This document shows positions 14,996 to 21,704 of a stretch of DNA of 43,490 nt, piece after piece. This DNA comes from Bacteroidota bacterium (lineage in GTDB: Bacteria > Bacteroidota > Bacteroidia > Flavobacteriales_D > Sanyastnellaceae). The notes beneath the pieces are model-generated. The model saw nothing but the letters and a program-made list of their open reading frames with translations. It was not told where the DNA came from and ran no database searches. Both the position numbers and the translations under genes were made by a program. Within the stretch, counting starts at the first letter, position 1; the number at the start of each line of letters is the position of its first letter. Location: contig JAQCJQ010000007.1 of the NCBI GenBank assembly GCA_027593035.1, forward strand, positions 1 through 43,490. Reading direction: 5' to 3'.

Positions 14996-15301
14996 TCAGT
15001 CACGAGCCCATTGGGCTCCAGATTCCAACGCGCGCATCATTTCCAGCAAAAGCAAATGGCTTTGAAGGGAGTACACACTGGAATGGGCGCGCAAATGCTG
15101 TCGCTCCAGCTGAATGCGTTCAAACGGCGTCACCAAGCCTTGGCTTTCTCGATCCAATGATTGAGCCCGGGCTTCACTCGCTTGTTTTGCCGCTTCATTT
15201 TGTTGAGCCAACGCCTGATTGAGTAGCGTGACTCTTTTTTCCAGACTGCTCAGTTGTGCCGTGTGCTCTTGGTCCCAAACCAATGCGTCGGCCCCTGGCA
15301 C
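14996..15301 (-). CDS. Small coiled-coil protein, unrecognised
   Basis: No family was recognised. The 101 residues (from a GTG at 15301) contain a heptad-rich helix, LSSLEKRVTLLNQALAQQN, then a Gln/Ala/Glu-rich middle and a second amphipathic segment LQSHLLLLEMMRALESG. There is no signal peptide. The open frame continues upstream to 15499, but that part is antisense to the ABA4-like gene and looks like its shadow. No ATG exists in the well-behaved part, so GTG (15301) or TTG (15283) must be the start; this weakens the call. Divergent from the ABA4-like gene with only about 33 bases between the chosen starts. Confidence 0.45.
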   Translation of the reverse strand: MPGADALVWDQEHTAQLSSLEKRVTLLNQALAQQNEAAKQASEARAQSLDRESQGLVTPFERIQLERQHLRAHSSVYSLQSHLLLLEMMRALESGAQWARD

Positions 15302-15334
15302 TTCATCGGCCCCATCGCGATTTGGTTTCTCGTC

Positions 15335-15622
15335 ATGGGTCTGAATCCACAAGGCCTCGCAGACTTCATGAACAGCGGATCTCACCCCGATGGGTTTTTG
15401 GCGGGGCTGGCCGAGGGGATGGGGACAAAGGCGGGAATTACCGCTCTGTGGGCACACGTGGTAGCCGGCGATATTGCTGTGACGCGGTGGATTTGGCAAG
15501 ACAGCCTCAAGCGCGCTGCGCGGCCTTGGTCAACTCGAATTGCCGTCTTTTTTGGCGTGATGATGATGCCTTTGGGGCTCGCTCTTCACCTGCTACTTCG
15601 AAGCGGGAAACCCCGTGGCTAA
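15335..15622 (+). CDS. Short ABA4-like (DUF4281) membrane protein
   Basis: The C-terminal half of an ABA4-like protein is clear: TALWAHVVAGDIAVTRWIWQ corresponds to the family W-x-H-x3-x-D-x3-x-R-W block, and VMMMPLGLALHLLLR to the terminal G-P-x-G-L membrane segment. With the ATG at 15335 the protein has 95 residues; family members usually have about 140-150, with two more N-terminal membrane segments. The frame is open upstream to a stop at 15224, offering TTG 15254 or GTG 15263 as starts and adding one further hydrophobic stretch (IGPIAIWFLVMG). The gene may be truncated at its 5' end. Enzymatic role unknown. Confidence 0.6.
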   Translation: MGLNPQGLADFMNSGSHPDGFLAGLAEGMGTKAGITALWAHVVAGDIAVTRWIWQDSLKRAARPWSTRIAVFFGVMMMPLGLALHLLLRSGKPRG

Positions 15623-15642
15623 CGGCTAGGAATCCCGTGATT

Positions 15643-16047
15643 TCAGTCCCTTCGAATCCAAACGCAGTTTCTGAAAACACCGTTGCATTTCTCTTTGATT
15701 CGATTGCCGGCCACCCTGTATTCGGTCTGCTGCATTGTACCTAAAATAGGAGTGTACTGAAATGACGCGCTGTCCGGGTAGAGTATGACTGCAATGGTCG
15801 TGTCCACATGTAAAAAGCTATACGTCCCAGAATGTGCTTCACCGTTCTGAAATTCAAACGTGTAATATCCTGGGATTCCGTCGGCGATATCCGCGTCCTC
15901 AAACACCATCAATTCCGGTCCGTTTTCTTCGCAATTGGAACATCCGCTATCAACGTCAATGTCATACGTCCCCAAGATTTTCTCTTGGATGGGTTTGCAC
16001 CCAAACAAAGCAAGAGAGCAACTCAAAAACACGATCACGGATTTCAT
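15643..16047 (-). CDS. Small lipoprotein
   Basis: 134 residues with a lipoprotein signal: MKSVIVFLSCSLALFGC, lipobox LFGC, acylated cysteine at residue 17. The mature part is rich in acidic residues and has a CSNC motif and two further cysteines near the C-terminus (KCNGVFRNC), which could form disulfides. A segment of alternating hydrophobic residues (TIAVILYP, FQYTPIL) suggests a small lipocalin-like beta fold, but this is only an impression. The start at 16047 is chosen because it begins the signal peptide; the open frame runs 24 codons further. Convergent with the ABA4-like gene (20-base gap). Confidence 0.7.
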   Translation of the reverse strand: MKSVIVFLSCSLALFGCKPIQEKILGTYDIDVDSGCSNCEENGPELMVFEDADIADGIPGYYTFEFQNGEAHSGTYSFLHVDTTIAVILYPDSASFQYTPILGTMQQTEYRVAGNRIKEKCNGVFRNCVWIRRD

Positions 16048-16210
16048 ATCCATCAATATCGGGAAAACTCGGCGAAATGCGATGGATTCGCTGATACCAC
16101 AACTGAAATCACACTCCATTCATCGCGCCTTTCGCGATTCAACTCAACTCCCGATATCGCTGAGCACCGATGCATTAGCAATACCGAATGCCTGAAGCCG
16201 TTCACCCCTA

Positions 16211-16250
16211 AAACCAAAAACGGGAGACCGCATCGCTGCAATCCCCCCGT
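16211..16250 (-). repeat. Orphan copy of the tRNA-Leu terminator (direct repeat A)
   Basis: The 33 bases at 16211-16243 are identical to 19394-19426. Read on the minus strand they form a hairpin with GCGA tetraloop (about 11 bp, one G.U where copy B has A-U) followed by TTTTTGG. No minus-strand gene lies within 3 kb upstream of it, since the intervening gene runs on the other strand. Best read as a duplicate left by insertion or recombination. Confidence 0.8.
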
Positions 16251-16327
16251 GAACCAAAATGTTAAACTTCACACAATTAGCGAAGGAGGGCTATATTCAG
16301 GAAGTTAAAAAAACACGTTTGCCTTCA

Positions 16328-19318
16328 ATGAAAAATATCGCCCTATTTTATTTCATCCTTGTCGGTGGCGCTCTGAACGCACAACTCGTGATCAATGAAG
16401 GTTCGAATAAGAATTTCAACTCCATCCTCGATGAGGATGACGAATCTGAAGATTGGATAGAAATTTATAACTCAGGGACTGCCGCGGTTAACCTCGAAGG
16501 CTATTCTCTCACTGACGACGAACTGGATCTGCAGAAATGGACCTTTTCAGCGCATGAAATTCAACCAGGAGAATTTCTCCTCGTCTTTTGTAGCGGAAAG
16601 GATCGGCAGGTCAATCAGGTATTTCAAAGTGTAGCCTTGATTGAAAACTACACGCCCGAACCGGGATGGAATTCCCACGATTTCGATGCGCCTTTCGAAT
16701 GGGACGGGTCATCGAACATCCTCATTGATGTATGCTCTTATTACAACCAAGGCTACACCTCAAATTCCATATTCAACCAAACAGCGACCACCTTTCCATC
16801 TACGATTGTTAAGTACAACGACAACAGTGACGCATCCTGTGACGCAATTGGAGGTGGTGTTTACTATCAAAGACCCAATACACGATTCAATGCGAGCATC
16901 GTTGGAAATGACAACATTCAGAATTGCAATACATGCTATCCTGCCCCCTACGGAAACTGGTATTGGAGCGCAAGAAATCAGATGCTTTTCACTGCGGATG
17001 AACTTCTAACCGCTGGACTATCCGCTGGACCCATAAGCAATATGGCTTGGGATGTAGAAAGCACCCCCAGCGAAAACTACACGTATATCAGCATCAAAAT
17101 CAAGCACACCCTCGACGATGGCGTTTCGACGGCATTTGTGAATGACGACGGCGTGGAGTTCCATACCAATTTTAAAATAGATTCCCAAGGAGAGACGGTT
17201 TACCTGTCATCACCTGCTCAAGAAGTTCTAGACCAACTCTATGTTGACTGTCCTTCAACCCTGACCAGCCTCGGTTCTCTTCCTGACGGCAGCCTCTCAT
17301 CGGATGTGCTCACCCTCCCATCACCGGGAGCATCCAATGGAAACAGCACCCATCCTGACGGGATGTGCAGCGCTCCGTTGATCTCAGAAATAGGAGGCGT
17401 TTACAGCACAACACTCAGTGTGGAGATTTTCAATACGGGAGATGCAGAAACGCAAATTCGTTTCACGACGAACGGAGATGAACCGAACCAAGACTCAGAA
17501 ATCTATCTCGGTGAGGCGATAGCAATTTATCAATCCTCATCCATCCGAGCGAGAGCCTTCAAAGACAACTTCGTTCCCAGTTCGATTGCGTCGGAATCTT
17601 ACCTGTTAAACGTTTCCCACATCACCCCCATCTTATCCATTCAGGTCGATAACTCGAGCCTTTATGGCGAAGAGGGCATATTTGATCACTGGGGTGAGGA
17701 TTGGGAGAAATTTGCGCAAATAACCTACTACGACTCGACTTCGGCACACGCGTTCGTCTTCGACCGCGATGCGGCCATGCAAATTGATGGAGGAGCAGGG
17801 GGAAGCAGATCACATCCTCAACACTCCTTTCGGTTAGAGCTCGCCAAAAGCGCATTCGAAGAACCTCCAGTTGAATTGAGTCTGCTCTCCAATCGGCAAG
17901 AACGAGACACCTACTCGCGTCTTTATTTCCGGAATGGAAGCAACCAATGGTTAACACTCCCTTACAAGGACGCCTATTTAGTGGATGCGCTCACGAGCGG
18001 AACGCATTGCTACCACTCCGCCATGCGTCCCGTATCCGTTTACATCAATGGAGCCTATTTCGGTCTGTACGAAATGAGGGAGAAGTTGGATGCAGAATTC
18101 TGGGAGGAATACGACGACTTCCAAGTTCCAGAATCGGTCGACGTGATTTCTGTGAGCTATTGGTATGATCTCGCGCTCAGGGCGACCGAAGGACAAGCCC
18201 AAGACTATTTGAACAGTTGGGAAGACTTCCAAAGCCTTGATCCCGCTTCCGAAGATTTTATGCAAGAAGCGAACGCGATCTATGATCTTGAGAATTACTC
18301 TGATTACATCATCAGTCAGGGATGGATTGGTAATTTCGATTGGCCCTACAACAACATCAAAGCGTACCGATCGGACGCTTCAGACCTGAGGTGGAGATTT
18401 GCAACGATCGACCTGGAGTTGAGCCTACAACCGAATGGATGGTCCGGTTGTCAGGATAACGGACTGGATCACATCCTGGGCCAAGGGGAGGACAACCTCT
18501 TCGTAGGGGCCTGGAACCGGAGCATGGACAACGAAGATTACCGGGTTTATTTTATCAATCGTTTCGCAGACCTCAACAACACACTCTACCGATCAGAAAG
18601 GCTGCTCTCCATCGAGCAGAATTACTTCAACGAGTGGGCTCTTGAGATGCAACAAGAATATCAGCGATGGGGCAATCCCAATGAGGTTGCACAAGAAATG
18701 GATCAGTTCTACGACCGCCACAATCTGTTGAGGGATGATATAGAATGCAAAGCGGGCGTGATTCAAGACCAGATCCAGGATGCACTCGAGCTCGATGGAC
18801 AGTTTGACGTGCTCCTTGACGTGTACCCGGAGAATGCGGGCGTCATCCATCTCAACACCATCACTCCGACGGATTACCCTTGGGAAGGCATCTATTACAA
18901 GGGGATTCCCATTGAGCTCACTGCTGAAGCGAATCCAGGATACAACTTCGTTTTGTGGGGGGTCGACAGCGATGTCGACGACCAGACAAACCCCTATTGG
19001 ACGGGTGAAACCTATAGCAGCGAACTCAGCTTCACCGCAGTTTTCGAGGTGACCAACGAGGTGGAAGAAATCGACACGAACACGGTGGTTGATGTATACC
19101 CCAACCCCGCAAAGGACATCCTTCACATCAGGACGAGCTCAAATCGAATTCTAGGCTGGCAGATCTATGATCATCAGGGTCAAGTCGTGGAAGCGACAAC
19201 GAACCACGCGCTTGACACGCACGTTACCGTCAACATCAGTCAACTTGCTCCTGGAATCTACACCCTTTCAACTTCCACCGATTCAGGTGTCGAGGTCAAT
19301 CGTTGGGTGAAATTTTAA
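16328..19318 (+). CDS. Secreted CotH-kinase family protein with T9SS sorting domain
   Basis: 996 residues, exported. Order: signal peptide (MKNIALFYFILVGGALNAQ); lamin-tail domain beginning VINEGSN and DWIEIYNSG (from about 20); chitobiase C-terminal-like domain (about 346-426, RFTTNGDEPN); CotH kinase domain (about 490-770), with HSFRLELAK, YKDAYLVDAL, VYINGAYFGLYEMREKLD and the conserved FATIDLELSL; an InlB B-repeat-like segment (about 832-905, GYNFVLWGVD and FTAVFE); and a T9SS type A sorting domain (about 918-996, VDVYPNPAKDIL to the end WVKF). CotH of Bacillus is a protein kinase; the target here is unknown. The start at 16328 begins the signal peptide. The gene lies between 33-base direct repeats and looks more AT-rich than its neighbours by eye. 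Confidence 0.9.
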   Translation: MKNIALFYFILVGGALNAQLVINEGSNKNFNSILDEDDESEDWIEIYNSGTAAVNLEGYSLTDDELDLQKWTFSAHEIQPGEFLLVFCSGKDRQVNQVFQSVALIENYTPEPGWNSHDFDAPFEWDGSSNILIDVCSYYNQGYTSNSIFNQTATTFPSTIVKYNDNSDASCDAIGGGVYYQRPNTRFNASIVGNDNIQNCNTCYPAPYGNWYWSARNQMLFTADELLTAGLSAGPISNMAWDVESTPSENYTYISIKIKHTLDDGVSTAFVNDDGVEFHTNFKIDSQGETVYLSSPAQEVLDQLYVDCPSTLTSLGSLPDGSLSSDVLTLPSPGASNGNSTHPDGMCSAPLISEIGGVYSTTLSVEIFNTGDAETQIRFTTNGDEPNQDSEIYLGEAIAIYQSSSIRARAFKDNFVPSSIASESYLLNVSHITPILSIQVDNSSLYGEEGIFDHWGEDWEKFAQITYYDSTSAHAFVFDRDAAMQIDGGAGGSRSHPQHSFRLELAKSAFEEPPVELSLLSNRQERDTYSRLYFRNGSNQWLTLPYKDAYLVDALTSGTHCYHSAMRPVSVYINGAYFGLYEMREKLDAEFWEEYDDFQVPESVDVISVSYWYDLALRATEGQAQDYLNSWEDFQSLDPASEDFMQEANAIYDLENYSDYIISQGWIGNFDWPYNNIKAYRSDASDLRWRFATIDLELSLQPNGWSGCQDNGLDHILGQGEDNLFVGAWNRSMDNEDYRVYFINRFADLNNTLYRSERLLSIEQNYFNEWALEMQQEYQRWGNPNEVAQEMDQFYDRHNLLRDDIECKAGVIQDQIQDALELDGQFDVLLDVYPENAGVIHLNTITPTDYPWEGIYYKGIPIELTAEANPGYNFVLWGVDSDVDDQTNPYWTGETYSSELSFTAVFEVTNEVEEIDTNTVVDVYPNPAKDILHIRTSSNRILGWQIYDHQGQVVEATTNHALDTHVTVNISQLAPGIYTLSTSTDSGVEVNRWVKF

Positions 19319-19393
19319 TCCCTGAGGCCGTGCGCTGAGAATCCGATTTGAGGTCGCAAAACTCTGCTCATGCGCTTGTTCACCAAGTGTGTC

Positions 19394-19434
19394 AAACCAA
19401 AAACGGGAGACCGCATCGCTGCAATCTCCCGTTT
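19394..19434 (-). terminator. Terminator of tRNA-Leu, GCGA-tetraloop hairpin (direct repeat B)
   Basis: On the minus strand, directly after the CCA of tRNA-Leu: AAACGGGAGA, UU, GCA, loop GCGA, UGC, GG, UCUCCCGUUU, then U residues. All 15 positions of the stem can pair (two U.G). On the plus strand the CC/AA positions would mismatch, so the minus-strand RNA is the functional form. Bases 19394-19426 are identical to repeat A. Confidence 0.85.
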
Positions 19435-19520
19435 GGTACCCGGAGCGGGACTTGAACCCGCACGACCCTAAGGTCAACAGATTTTAAGTCTGTCGTGTCT
19501 ACCAATTCCACCATCCAGGC
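19434..19520 (-). tRNA. tRNA-Leu (anticodon UAA), CCA encoded
   Basis: Read on the minus strand: acceptor GCCTGGA pairs with TCCGGGT (one G.U at the first pair), D arm GGAATTGGTAGAC, anticodon stem CAGAC/GTCTG region around TTAAAA (anticodon TAA), a long class II variable arm, T arm GCGGG-TTCAAGT-CCCGC, discriminator A and encoded CCA. 87 bases with CCA. Confidence 0.96.
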
Positions 19521-19590: not shown

Positions 19591-20898
19591 TCACAACGAC
19601 AGCAAGCCCTCAGCTATGCGCTGAGCGGCCCCGGCATGGGCCATAGCAAACGACTGGGCCTGAAGTCCCTGATGTCTCAATGCCTTCGAATCACCAAGCG
19701 CCTGTTGCACTGCGAGGGTCAGGGCAGCTTCCGAATCCACAACGTGCAGTGCTCCGCTGGCCTGCAAGAGTTGAGCTTCTAGAAAACGACTGCAATTTGG
19801 ACCTACCCATACGGACACACCGTGCGCCGCGGGCTCGAGCGTGTTGTGGATCCCCGCACCAAAACCGCCGCCGACGACCGCCGCGTTGGCGACGGCATAG
19901 ATGCCGGTGAGAAATCCAATGGCATCCACCAGCAGTACTTTGGCAGGAGGCAACGCGGCACTGGGGTTCGCCTCCGATCGGTGATCGCTCCAAACAACAG
20001 CTTCATGCCCCCGTTTTTTCCATGCTTCTTTTTGCCCAGCAATCGAGTCTTCTGTCCACTCGTGAGGCACGACGATGACGCACCAGTTTTCGGTCCAACT
20101 GACTGCCAACATGGCTTCGATTTCAGGGTTCCAGGCACTCCCGACAACCAAGCACTGGCGTTGACCCACCCAGTTTTTCAATCCCGCATCGAAATGATCG
20201 GCGGACTCCTGAACCGTTTGCAATACACGGTCAAATCGCGGGTCGCCCAGGACTTTCGCACCTAGAATCCCCCAACGACTCAGTGTTTCTTCCGATTGCT
20301 GGTGTTGCACCCAGATGGCATCCAACTTCTCCCAAGCCTTCCGGTGCCACCCCCCTCCAACACGAAAGGGCCACCGACCCTCCACCGCGTGCGCCGCAAA
20401 CACCACGCATGGAATCTGATGCTTTTGCAACGCTGCCAACCAATTCGGCCAGACCTCATACTTCGCAAGGGCAAGCCAGGCGATGCTCGGGGCTAATTCC
20501 CCCGTTCGAGTCACCGCAGCCACGAATCTCCGCACGTGACTCGGACGATCCAAGGGGGATGGCGCCACACAATCCCGATCCGTCCACCAGGTCGGACGCC
20601 GTTTTTGAAACGCAATCCAGCCAGAAGGGCTGAAGAACGTGAGCAAGAAACGGGCCGACGGATTGGCCTTTCGATAGGCTTCCATCACCGGGCGAGCCTG
20701 TTCAAATTCACCCGCGGAAGCGCAATGAACCGCATGCCATTGTTCTTCGGGAGGAAGCACGCTGGTGGCCTCAGCCAACACAGACCACCCTTGGCTGCGC
20801 ATCGCCAACCAGCCCTTGGCTTTCTTGTGCCCAAAGGCCGAGGCCAATCTCAATAGCCCGCCATAAAGGACCAGGAAGAAAGAGTGCATCGCCTGCAT
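19591..20898 (-). CDS. waaA: 3-deoxy-D-manno-octulosonic acid (Kdo) transferase
   Basis: A 435-residue inner-membrane-anchored GT30 enzyme that adds Kdo to lipid A precursor at the cytoplasmic face. A hydrophobic N-terminal anchor (FFLVLYGGLLRLASAFG) precedes two Rossmann domains. The family blocks HCASAGEFEQARP (general base Glu), LAKYEVWPNW, GDPRFDRV, GSAWNPEIEAM, VPHEW and VGGGFGAGIHNTLEPAAHG are all visible. The ATG at 20898 overlaps the TGA of the upstream outer-membrane gene (TGATG pattern), which settles the start; the open frame extends 16 codons further. Length agrees with the family (about 410-430). Confidence 0.93.
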   Translation of the reverse strand: MQAMHSFFLVLYGGLLRLASAFGHKKAKGWLAMRSQGWSVLAEATSVLPPEEQWHAVHCASAGEFEQARPVMEAYRKANPSARFLLTFFSPSGWIAFQKRRPTWWTDRDCVAPSPLDRPSHVRRFVAAVTRTGELAPSIAWLALAKYEVWPNWLAALQKHQIPCVVFAAHAVEGRWPFRVGGGWHRKAWEKLDAIWVQHQQSEETLSRWGILGAKVLGDPRFDRVLQTVQESADHFDAGLKNWVGQRQCLVVGSAWNPEIEAMLAVSWTENWCVIVVPHEWTEDSIAGQKEAWKKRGHEAVVWSDHRSEANPSAALPPAKVLLVDAIGFLTGIYAVANAAVVGGGFGAGIHNTLEPAAHGVSVWVGPNCSRFLEAQLLQASGALHVVDSEAALTLAVQQALGDSKALRHQGLQAQSFAMAHAGAAQRIAEGLLSL

Positions 20899-21704
20899 CA
20901 ATTCCAATGTTCGACCGCAGTGCGTTTGTAGAAATGGAAAATCCACCCCACTTGAATGCCGCCATACAGATCCAATCGCGGAGAATCGTCCGTGGTCTGG
21001 GTGTCAAAATTCATGGGGCGCTGCGGCCAAGTTTTCGCTTCCCAAAGTTGGACGCCCGCGAAATAATTGACCAGACCATTGTCCGACATGTGCCAATACC
21101 CGACAAACTGCTTGAAGGCTATACCCCATGTGAGGCGATCGTACCCTGACAAATAGGGTTCATCCAATTGGGTGATGGGATTCTCTGTGTTTTCAAAATG
21201 CACGCGGTGGTGCACCGAACCCAGGCCAAAGTTGATCAGCACCCCCGAGTTGGCATTGGTCCTGCGCAGCGGAAAGAGCCTTCCCGCATCCAACGTCACC
21301 AATCCACTGCGCCCAGACAACGCCAGCAACGCTACCTGCCCCTCGTTGTCAATCAATTGACCCGCTGGATTCAACAAATTGGTCAAAACGCCTTGCTCCA
21401 ATAGTTTCATCCCAAAACCAAAATCAGCCTGCAAACCGGTGTAGAATCCGGACGGAAACTTGACATGCAGCCCCACTCCCACCTGCCCTCCTTGACCGAA
21501 TCGATCGCCCAAATCAGCCGCACACACACCCATTCCACCGTGCAAGTGGAAATGAGGAGAAAACAAGGCGCTATCACGCACTGAACGCGATTGTGCCGAG
21601 GCGTTTTGAACCATCAAAAGACACGCCAAAAAGCAGAGTAAAATGGGCCTGCTCGCTGCGTGCACATCGGGTCGGCACACCCGGCCTGGAATCATTCGAA
21701 ACAT
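20898..21704 (-). CDS. Predicted outer-membrane beta-barrel protein, unrecognised family
   Basis: 268 residues with a signal peptide of about 38 residues (RPILLCFLACLLMVQNASAQ). The mature part alternates aromatic and polar residues in strand-like segments (FHLHGGMGVCAADLG, GFYTGLQADFGFG, LINFGLGSVHHRVHF, WGIAFKQFVGYWHM) and ends with an aromatic-rich strand (GGIQVGWIFHFY), as in small porin-like barrels. No named family was recognised. The stop codon overlaps the waaA start, so the two are translationally coupled, which suggests a role in lipopolysaccharide or outer-membrane biology. The start at 21704 was chosen because the frame further upstream is antisense to the DegT gene. Confidence 0.65.
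   Translation of the reverse strand: MFRMIPGRVCRPDVHAASRPILLCFLACLLMVQNASAQSRSVRDSALFSPHFHLHGGMGVCAADLGDRFGQGGQVGVGLHVKFPSGFYTGLQADFGFGMKLLEQGVLTNLLNPAGQLIDNEGQVALLALSGRSGLVTLDAGRLFPLRRTNANSGVLINFGLGSVHHRVHFENTENPITQLDEPYLSGYDRLTWGIAFKQFVGYWHMSDNGLVNYFAGVQLWEAKTWPQRPMNFDTQTTDDSPRLDLYGGIQVGWIFHFYKRTAVEHWN

Follow-up and report, generated by a model that had tools for sequence, protein, structure and literature searches.

Plankton from marine habitats is known to carry variable genomic islands anchored at tRNA genes. In the tycheposons of the marine picocyanobacteria the recombinases are of the tyrosine type, and many units are without a recombinase of their own. The suicidal integrases of archaea target tRNA genes as well. 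A review from 2021 describes such self-splitting (suicidal) integrases, which are of the tyrosine type and belong to elements such as SSV1, pTN3 and pT26-2, as exclusively archaeal (PMC8371274). The SCC and ECC cassette chromosomes use the CcrAB large serine recombinases and the 3′ end of rlmH (PMC6222049), while background on tRNA-integrated genomic islands of the Islander/TIGER type is given in PMC12884075.

Here, we analyzed a window of 43,490 nucleotides, the whole stretch under study, from a Bacteroidota bacterium of the family Sanyastnellaceae, order Flavobacteriales (GCA_027593035.1). With a probability of roughly 80%, the 3′ end of its tRNA-Leu is a hot spot for elements which owe their mobility to a large serine recombinase (LSR) and come with a terminator of their own. 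The LSR gene would be split, and a unit encoding a CotH protein would be one eroded member of these elements.

The likely target is a tRNA-Leu(UAA) gene with encoded CCA (19434–19520, minus strand), with the putative attB in its 3′ part. The sequence AAACCAAAAACGGGAGACCGCATCGCTGCAATC, exactly 33 bp long, is found in two identical copies at 16211–16243 and 19394–19426, with a spacing of 3183 bp. Extended to 37 bp, the copies agree at 36 of 37 positions. This confirms the original prediction of an exact duplication with a single CotH/T9SS gene in between. Copy B (19394–19431, minus strand) is located directly downstream of the tRNA and folds on the tRNA strand into a stable hairpin with a U run after it (−27.2 kcal/mol, z −5.0). 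It is the terminator of tRNA-Leu, probably supplied by an element. Copy A (16211–16247, minus strand) still folds (−18.6), has no tRNA upstream, and likely represents an eroded junction. The 33 bp themselves contain no tRNA gene sequence. The core of the repeat had no match in shuffled sequence. A dispersed repeat was considered and dropped, because the whole genome (2.22 Mb) holds two copies only, with up to three mismatches allowed. The encoded CCA was likewise dropped as a mark of element-supplied ends, being inconsistent between tRNAs.

Between copies A and B there is one gene only, the cargo of the unit (16328–19318, plus strand). It encodes a secreted protein with CotH, lamin-tail, chitobiase-C/Fn3-associated and Por_Secre_tail domains, the latter a T9SS sorting tail. 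The outer border of the site is formed by a small lipoprotein-like gene (15643–16119, minus strand; lipobox seen by eye), with a homologue in nine other genomes of the genus, and the inner border, beside tRNA-Leu, by kdtA/waaA (3-deoxy-manno-octulosonate transferase; 19591–20946, minus strand). Further out, at 15290–15293, the window joins two flanks where the relatives G005 and G019 carry ~5.4 kb more, with three large genes (1029–1044, 358 and 429 aa).

The order lipoprotein gene, hairpin, unit, hairpin, tRNA-Leu and kdtA is common to the window genome and to G014, in which the unit consists of one gene for a 1366-aa protein with a signal-peptide-like start. In G010, kdtA and tRNA-Leu are followed by one hairpin and the lipoprotein gene, which is the empty site, with one terminator between tRNA and lipoprotein gene, that the original prediction had called for. 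G005 and G019 are homologous to the window from 15290 to 16247, through copy A, and then pass into a different element's far end. Insertion beside the tRNA with duplication of the terminator, as first proposed, is shown by this comparison of sequences.

From 16328 to 19451 the CotH unit is 92.3% identical to contig C82 of G019. The homology extends past the repeat and stops at 19451, inside the T-loop of the tRNA, beyond which the G019 sequence turns into a far end that belongs to a different element. A later unit thus probably entered between the tRNA and the CotH gene of G019, as stacking predicts. The tRNA 3′ segment at 19432–19451 (minus strand) is also common to the far junctions of the relatives and is the candidate crossover region. 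The CotH protein has a 94% identical relative in G019 only, and its identity to any other match within the genus does not exceed 33%. As the homology to G019 begins there, the gene probably starts at the ATG at 16328 rather than at 16259, to which the open reading frame can be extended.

The LSR is found in relatives of the window genome. It has Resolvase, Recombinase and Zn-ribbon domains and lies beside the tRNA-Leu hairpin in G016 and, as a 77% identical protein, at the same place in G019. The one case of a complete LSR unit in one contig is C85 of G016, a 5.7-kb unit between two sites, in which the 3′ end of the LSR gene faces the tRNA. This unit also encodes an HNH endonuclease and a C5-cytosine methyltransferase, both matched by type II restriction-modification models of PADLOC, and a weakly MerR-like protein. 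Other genomes of the family have more distant LSRs, which are located at tRNA-Leu, tRNA-Asn and tRNA-Arg 3′ ends. Beyond the family, but within the order, related LSR 3′ ends are found at tRNA-Leu and tRNA-Glu. Plasmids and phages yielded only recombinases less than 60% identical to the LSR, and no LSR relative was confirmed among viral contigs. Because of its association with the site and the junctions, the LSR is strongly supported as the likely agent of insertion. The claim that no integrase is present holds for the window and, by homology to the G016-type LSR or to PF07508, for its genome, but not for the relatives, which carry the LSR in the unit touching tRNA-Leu. As a separate observation, contigs C85 and C165 of G016 (L056, L057) both carry tRNA-Leu(UAA) with different neighboring units, possibly as two strain alleles.

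Similar to SCC and ECC, the insertion appears to be driven by an LSR at the 3′ end of a conserved gene, with att direct repeats at the ends, highly variable cargo, and element remnants at the site. Here, in contrast, the target is the 3′ end of tRNA-Leu and not rlmH, the terminator seems to be supplied by the element, the attP apparently lies inside the LSR gene, and stacks are frequent. The linked recombinase is a single LSR with general LSR domains.

The far ends of the elements share ~170 bp (as judged by eye; a 149-bp query was used to search for them). In stacks, this end is followed by GTCCCGCTCCGGGTACC and the hairpin. In G093, G077 and G091, what comes next is a 3′ fragment of tRNA-Leu and then a plain terminator rich in GC. 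A similar GC-rich terminator stands directly after tRNA-Leu in relatives without the hairpin. G016, G093 and G077 each show both ends within one contig, the intact tRNA on one side and the displaced tRNA 3′ fragment on the opposite side, and in G091 the two ends are on two contigs. The tRNA fragment followed by an ordinary terminator therefore suggests that the element restores the tRNA end, supplies a new terminator, and displaces the old one. Islander/TIGER islands likewise complete the tRNA and leave a tRNA 3′ fragment at the far end, and here, too, a relative (G010) has the empty site. Unlike in those islands, among which tyrosine integrases are more abundant, the recombinase is an LSR, the terminator is replaced as well, and the units often consist of one secreted-protein gene and no integrase. 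The units of G093 and G077 (2–2.6 kb) are each essentially one large gene, without LSR, and the gene of G093 encodes lectin-like and Fib_succ_major domains. In addition, G104 has a unit of ~1 kb at tRNA-Leu(CAA) (L290:1299-2450), which is bounded on either side by a diverged hairpin, includes an LSR tail, and is possibly a minimal derivative.

The hairpin could also be nothing else than the vertically inherited terminator of tRNA-Leu, with copy A as an ordinary local duplication and no mobile DNA involved. Indeed, wherever a contig of the genus extends past tRNA-Leu(UAA), the hairpin comes next. However, the same hairpin follows tRNA-Leu(CAG) and tRNA-Leu(CAA) and is found in another genus, and the ordinary terminators displaced behind the far ends of G093, G077 and G091 contradict this explanation, which we consider very improbable. 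Conservation of tRNA terminators alone was ruled out by a control, as the tRNA-Gly terminators of the same genomes differ from the hairpin in the loop and flanks.

With up to two mismatches, the 22-bp core of the repeat is present in 14 of the 22 genomes of the genus and in two genomes of another genus of the same family, either at tRNA-Leu 3′ ends or in same-direction stacks 3–7 kb apart. Several contigs hold two or three such copies. A scan of 84,980 species genomes for the exact pattern returned 22 stretches, mostly tRNA-Leu ends or stacks rather than very many unrelated sites. All are Flavobacteriales contigs from metagenome-assembled genomes (MAGs), one of them in a record titled Crocinitomicaceae. 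Viral contigs had no match to the core pattern. All genomes with the site are draft MAGs whose contigs often break at these repeats, and many contigs end at or near a core copy or tRNA-Leu, as expected where repeats break assemblies. Outside the tRNA-Leu site, G019 (L059) and G010 (L067) have the hairpin between a 990-aa gene and tRNA-Asn. In G002 and G009 (L053, L068), hairpin-type sites flank a gene for aconitase B, next to which a very large secreted protein is encoded.

Many units consist of just one gene flanked by repeated, equally oriented hairpins, which is reminiscent of an integron, in which the hairpins would be the attC sites of a gene-cassette system. Yet the recombinase at these sites belongs to the serine type and not to the IntI tyrosine integrases, the junctions obey the logic of a tRNA 3′ end, and several units have more than one gene. 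Of all the explanations weighed here, we give this one the least credence.

A more serious alternative, though still an unlikely one, is that short terminator repeats underwent homologous or replication-slippage exchange and the CotH gene was thereby gained, without a site-specific recombinase. Only the hairpin, with neither tRNA fragment nor LSR tail, is present at copy A and where the 1400-aa units (G014, G017 and G002) have their far junctions, and the window genome has no LSR of this kind. These hairpin-only junctions of the 1400-aa units are the weakest point of the LSR model, which explains them by later erosion or exchange only. Against the exchange, 33 bp are short for homologous recombination, relatives have LSR genes at this very site, and in other units the far junction breaks off exactly within the T-loop and has a conserved LSR-coding end. 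G019 shows such a precise junction for the CotH unit itself, on the tRNA side. The originally predicted exchange between terminators is therefore not supported as the main process, in view of the T-loop junctions and the LSR of the relatives.

Within the LSR model, the CotH unit of the window is best read as an LSR-less, stranded, and partly eroded member of a stack. Of the two element ends, it has kept the tRNA side alone. This reading follows from the lack of such an LSR in the genome, from copy A being without the tRNA 3′ fragment and LSR-tail end found here in relatives, and from the 80 bp between copy A and the CotH start (16248–16327), which have no homology to the sequence upstream of CotH in G019. 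Its presumed membership in the element family rests on its relatives. Homologous exchange or deletion may have contributed to the eroded junction.

Further indications come from the LSR gene. When the ends of the G016 unit are connected via the tRNA segment that they share, 578 codons can be read without interruption through the hairpin and the tRNA end and on into the far end. Once the element is integrated, the LSR frame extends into the antisense of tRNA-Leu. The part of the frame on the far end encodes 48 residues ending in YRP and a stop. Across three genera, eight far ends have this tail in frame, with identical length and the same stop. Among five tails, the differences by codon position are 34/24/98, a pattern indicative of coding sequence. 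A small open reading frame (MAN..GKKFGGREKGTPNK..) starts 21 bases after the tail in four of the five far ends compared. In six LSRs tested, no stop interrupts the frame from a conserved YRT motif across the hairpin up to the tRNA (chance 0.03–0.35 each), and an open frame through to the tRNA is also seen at LSR 3′ ends in other families. The exception is G019, where the frame stops before the hairpin, with a 4-bp repeat difference. The CAGT tetranucleotide run near the LSR 3′ end (L056:5797 and L061:5928 regions) differs by one unit between G016 and G019, possibly due to slippage, and this difference shifts the G019 LSR out of frame ahead of the hairpin. The amino-acid motif at the junction may partly reflect the constraint of the hairpin. 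An unsplit open LSR with its tail, sought at the level of the order, was not found, and neither was a circular form of the element. Taken from the DNA, an attP inside the LSR gene is supported, so that integration would split off the last ~48 codons.

The elements would function as follows. The attP, probably within the 3′ part of the LSR gene, would comprise a copy of the tRNA 3′ end and, behind it, the element's own terminator hairpin. During integration, this copy would complete the tRNA, the hairpin would serve as its new terminator, and the old tRNA 3′ fragment with the old terminator would be left at the far end, while the last ~48 codons of the LSR gene would be separated from the rest. 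Newcomers would enter at the restored tRNA, and therefore successive units would line up in the same orientation, each separated from the next by one hairpin. The CotH unit would have entered as an LSR-less unit, its far junction having eroded to the hairpin. We infer that LSR-less units are mobilized in trans.

More broadly, these elements may constitute a bacterial family of self-splitting LSRs, a proposal for which we see even odds. In such a family, one stretch of DNA would be recombinase coding sequence, tRNA 3′ end, and terminator at the same time. Integration would truncate the LSR and lock the element in, and the complete LSR of a newcomer would mobilize, in trans, short LSR-less units, often with a single secreted-protein gene. 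As in the archaeal suicidal integrases, the att site would lie within the integrase gene and integration would split it, as judged here from sequence alone. In contrast to the archaeal enzymes, the recombinase here is bacterial and of the serine type, and it would lose no more than its last ~48 codons. Similar to tycheposons, these are tRNA-anchored variable islands of marine plankton with many recombinase-less units, yet with an LSR in place of tyrosine recombinases.

If true, there would be a bacterial serine-recombinase counterpart to the self-splitting integrases called exclusively archaeal in the 2021 review, and a mobile element which rewrites the transcription stop of a tRNA gene. As target site and recombinase are named, the proposal is directly testable. 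For the uncultured marine Flavobacteriales, it would mean a defined route by which to swap surface-protein and restriction-modification genes.
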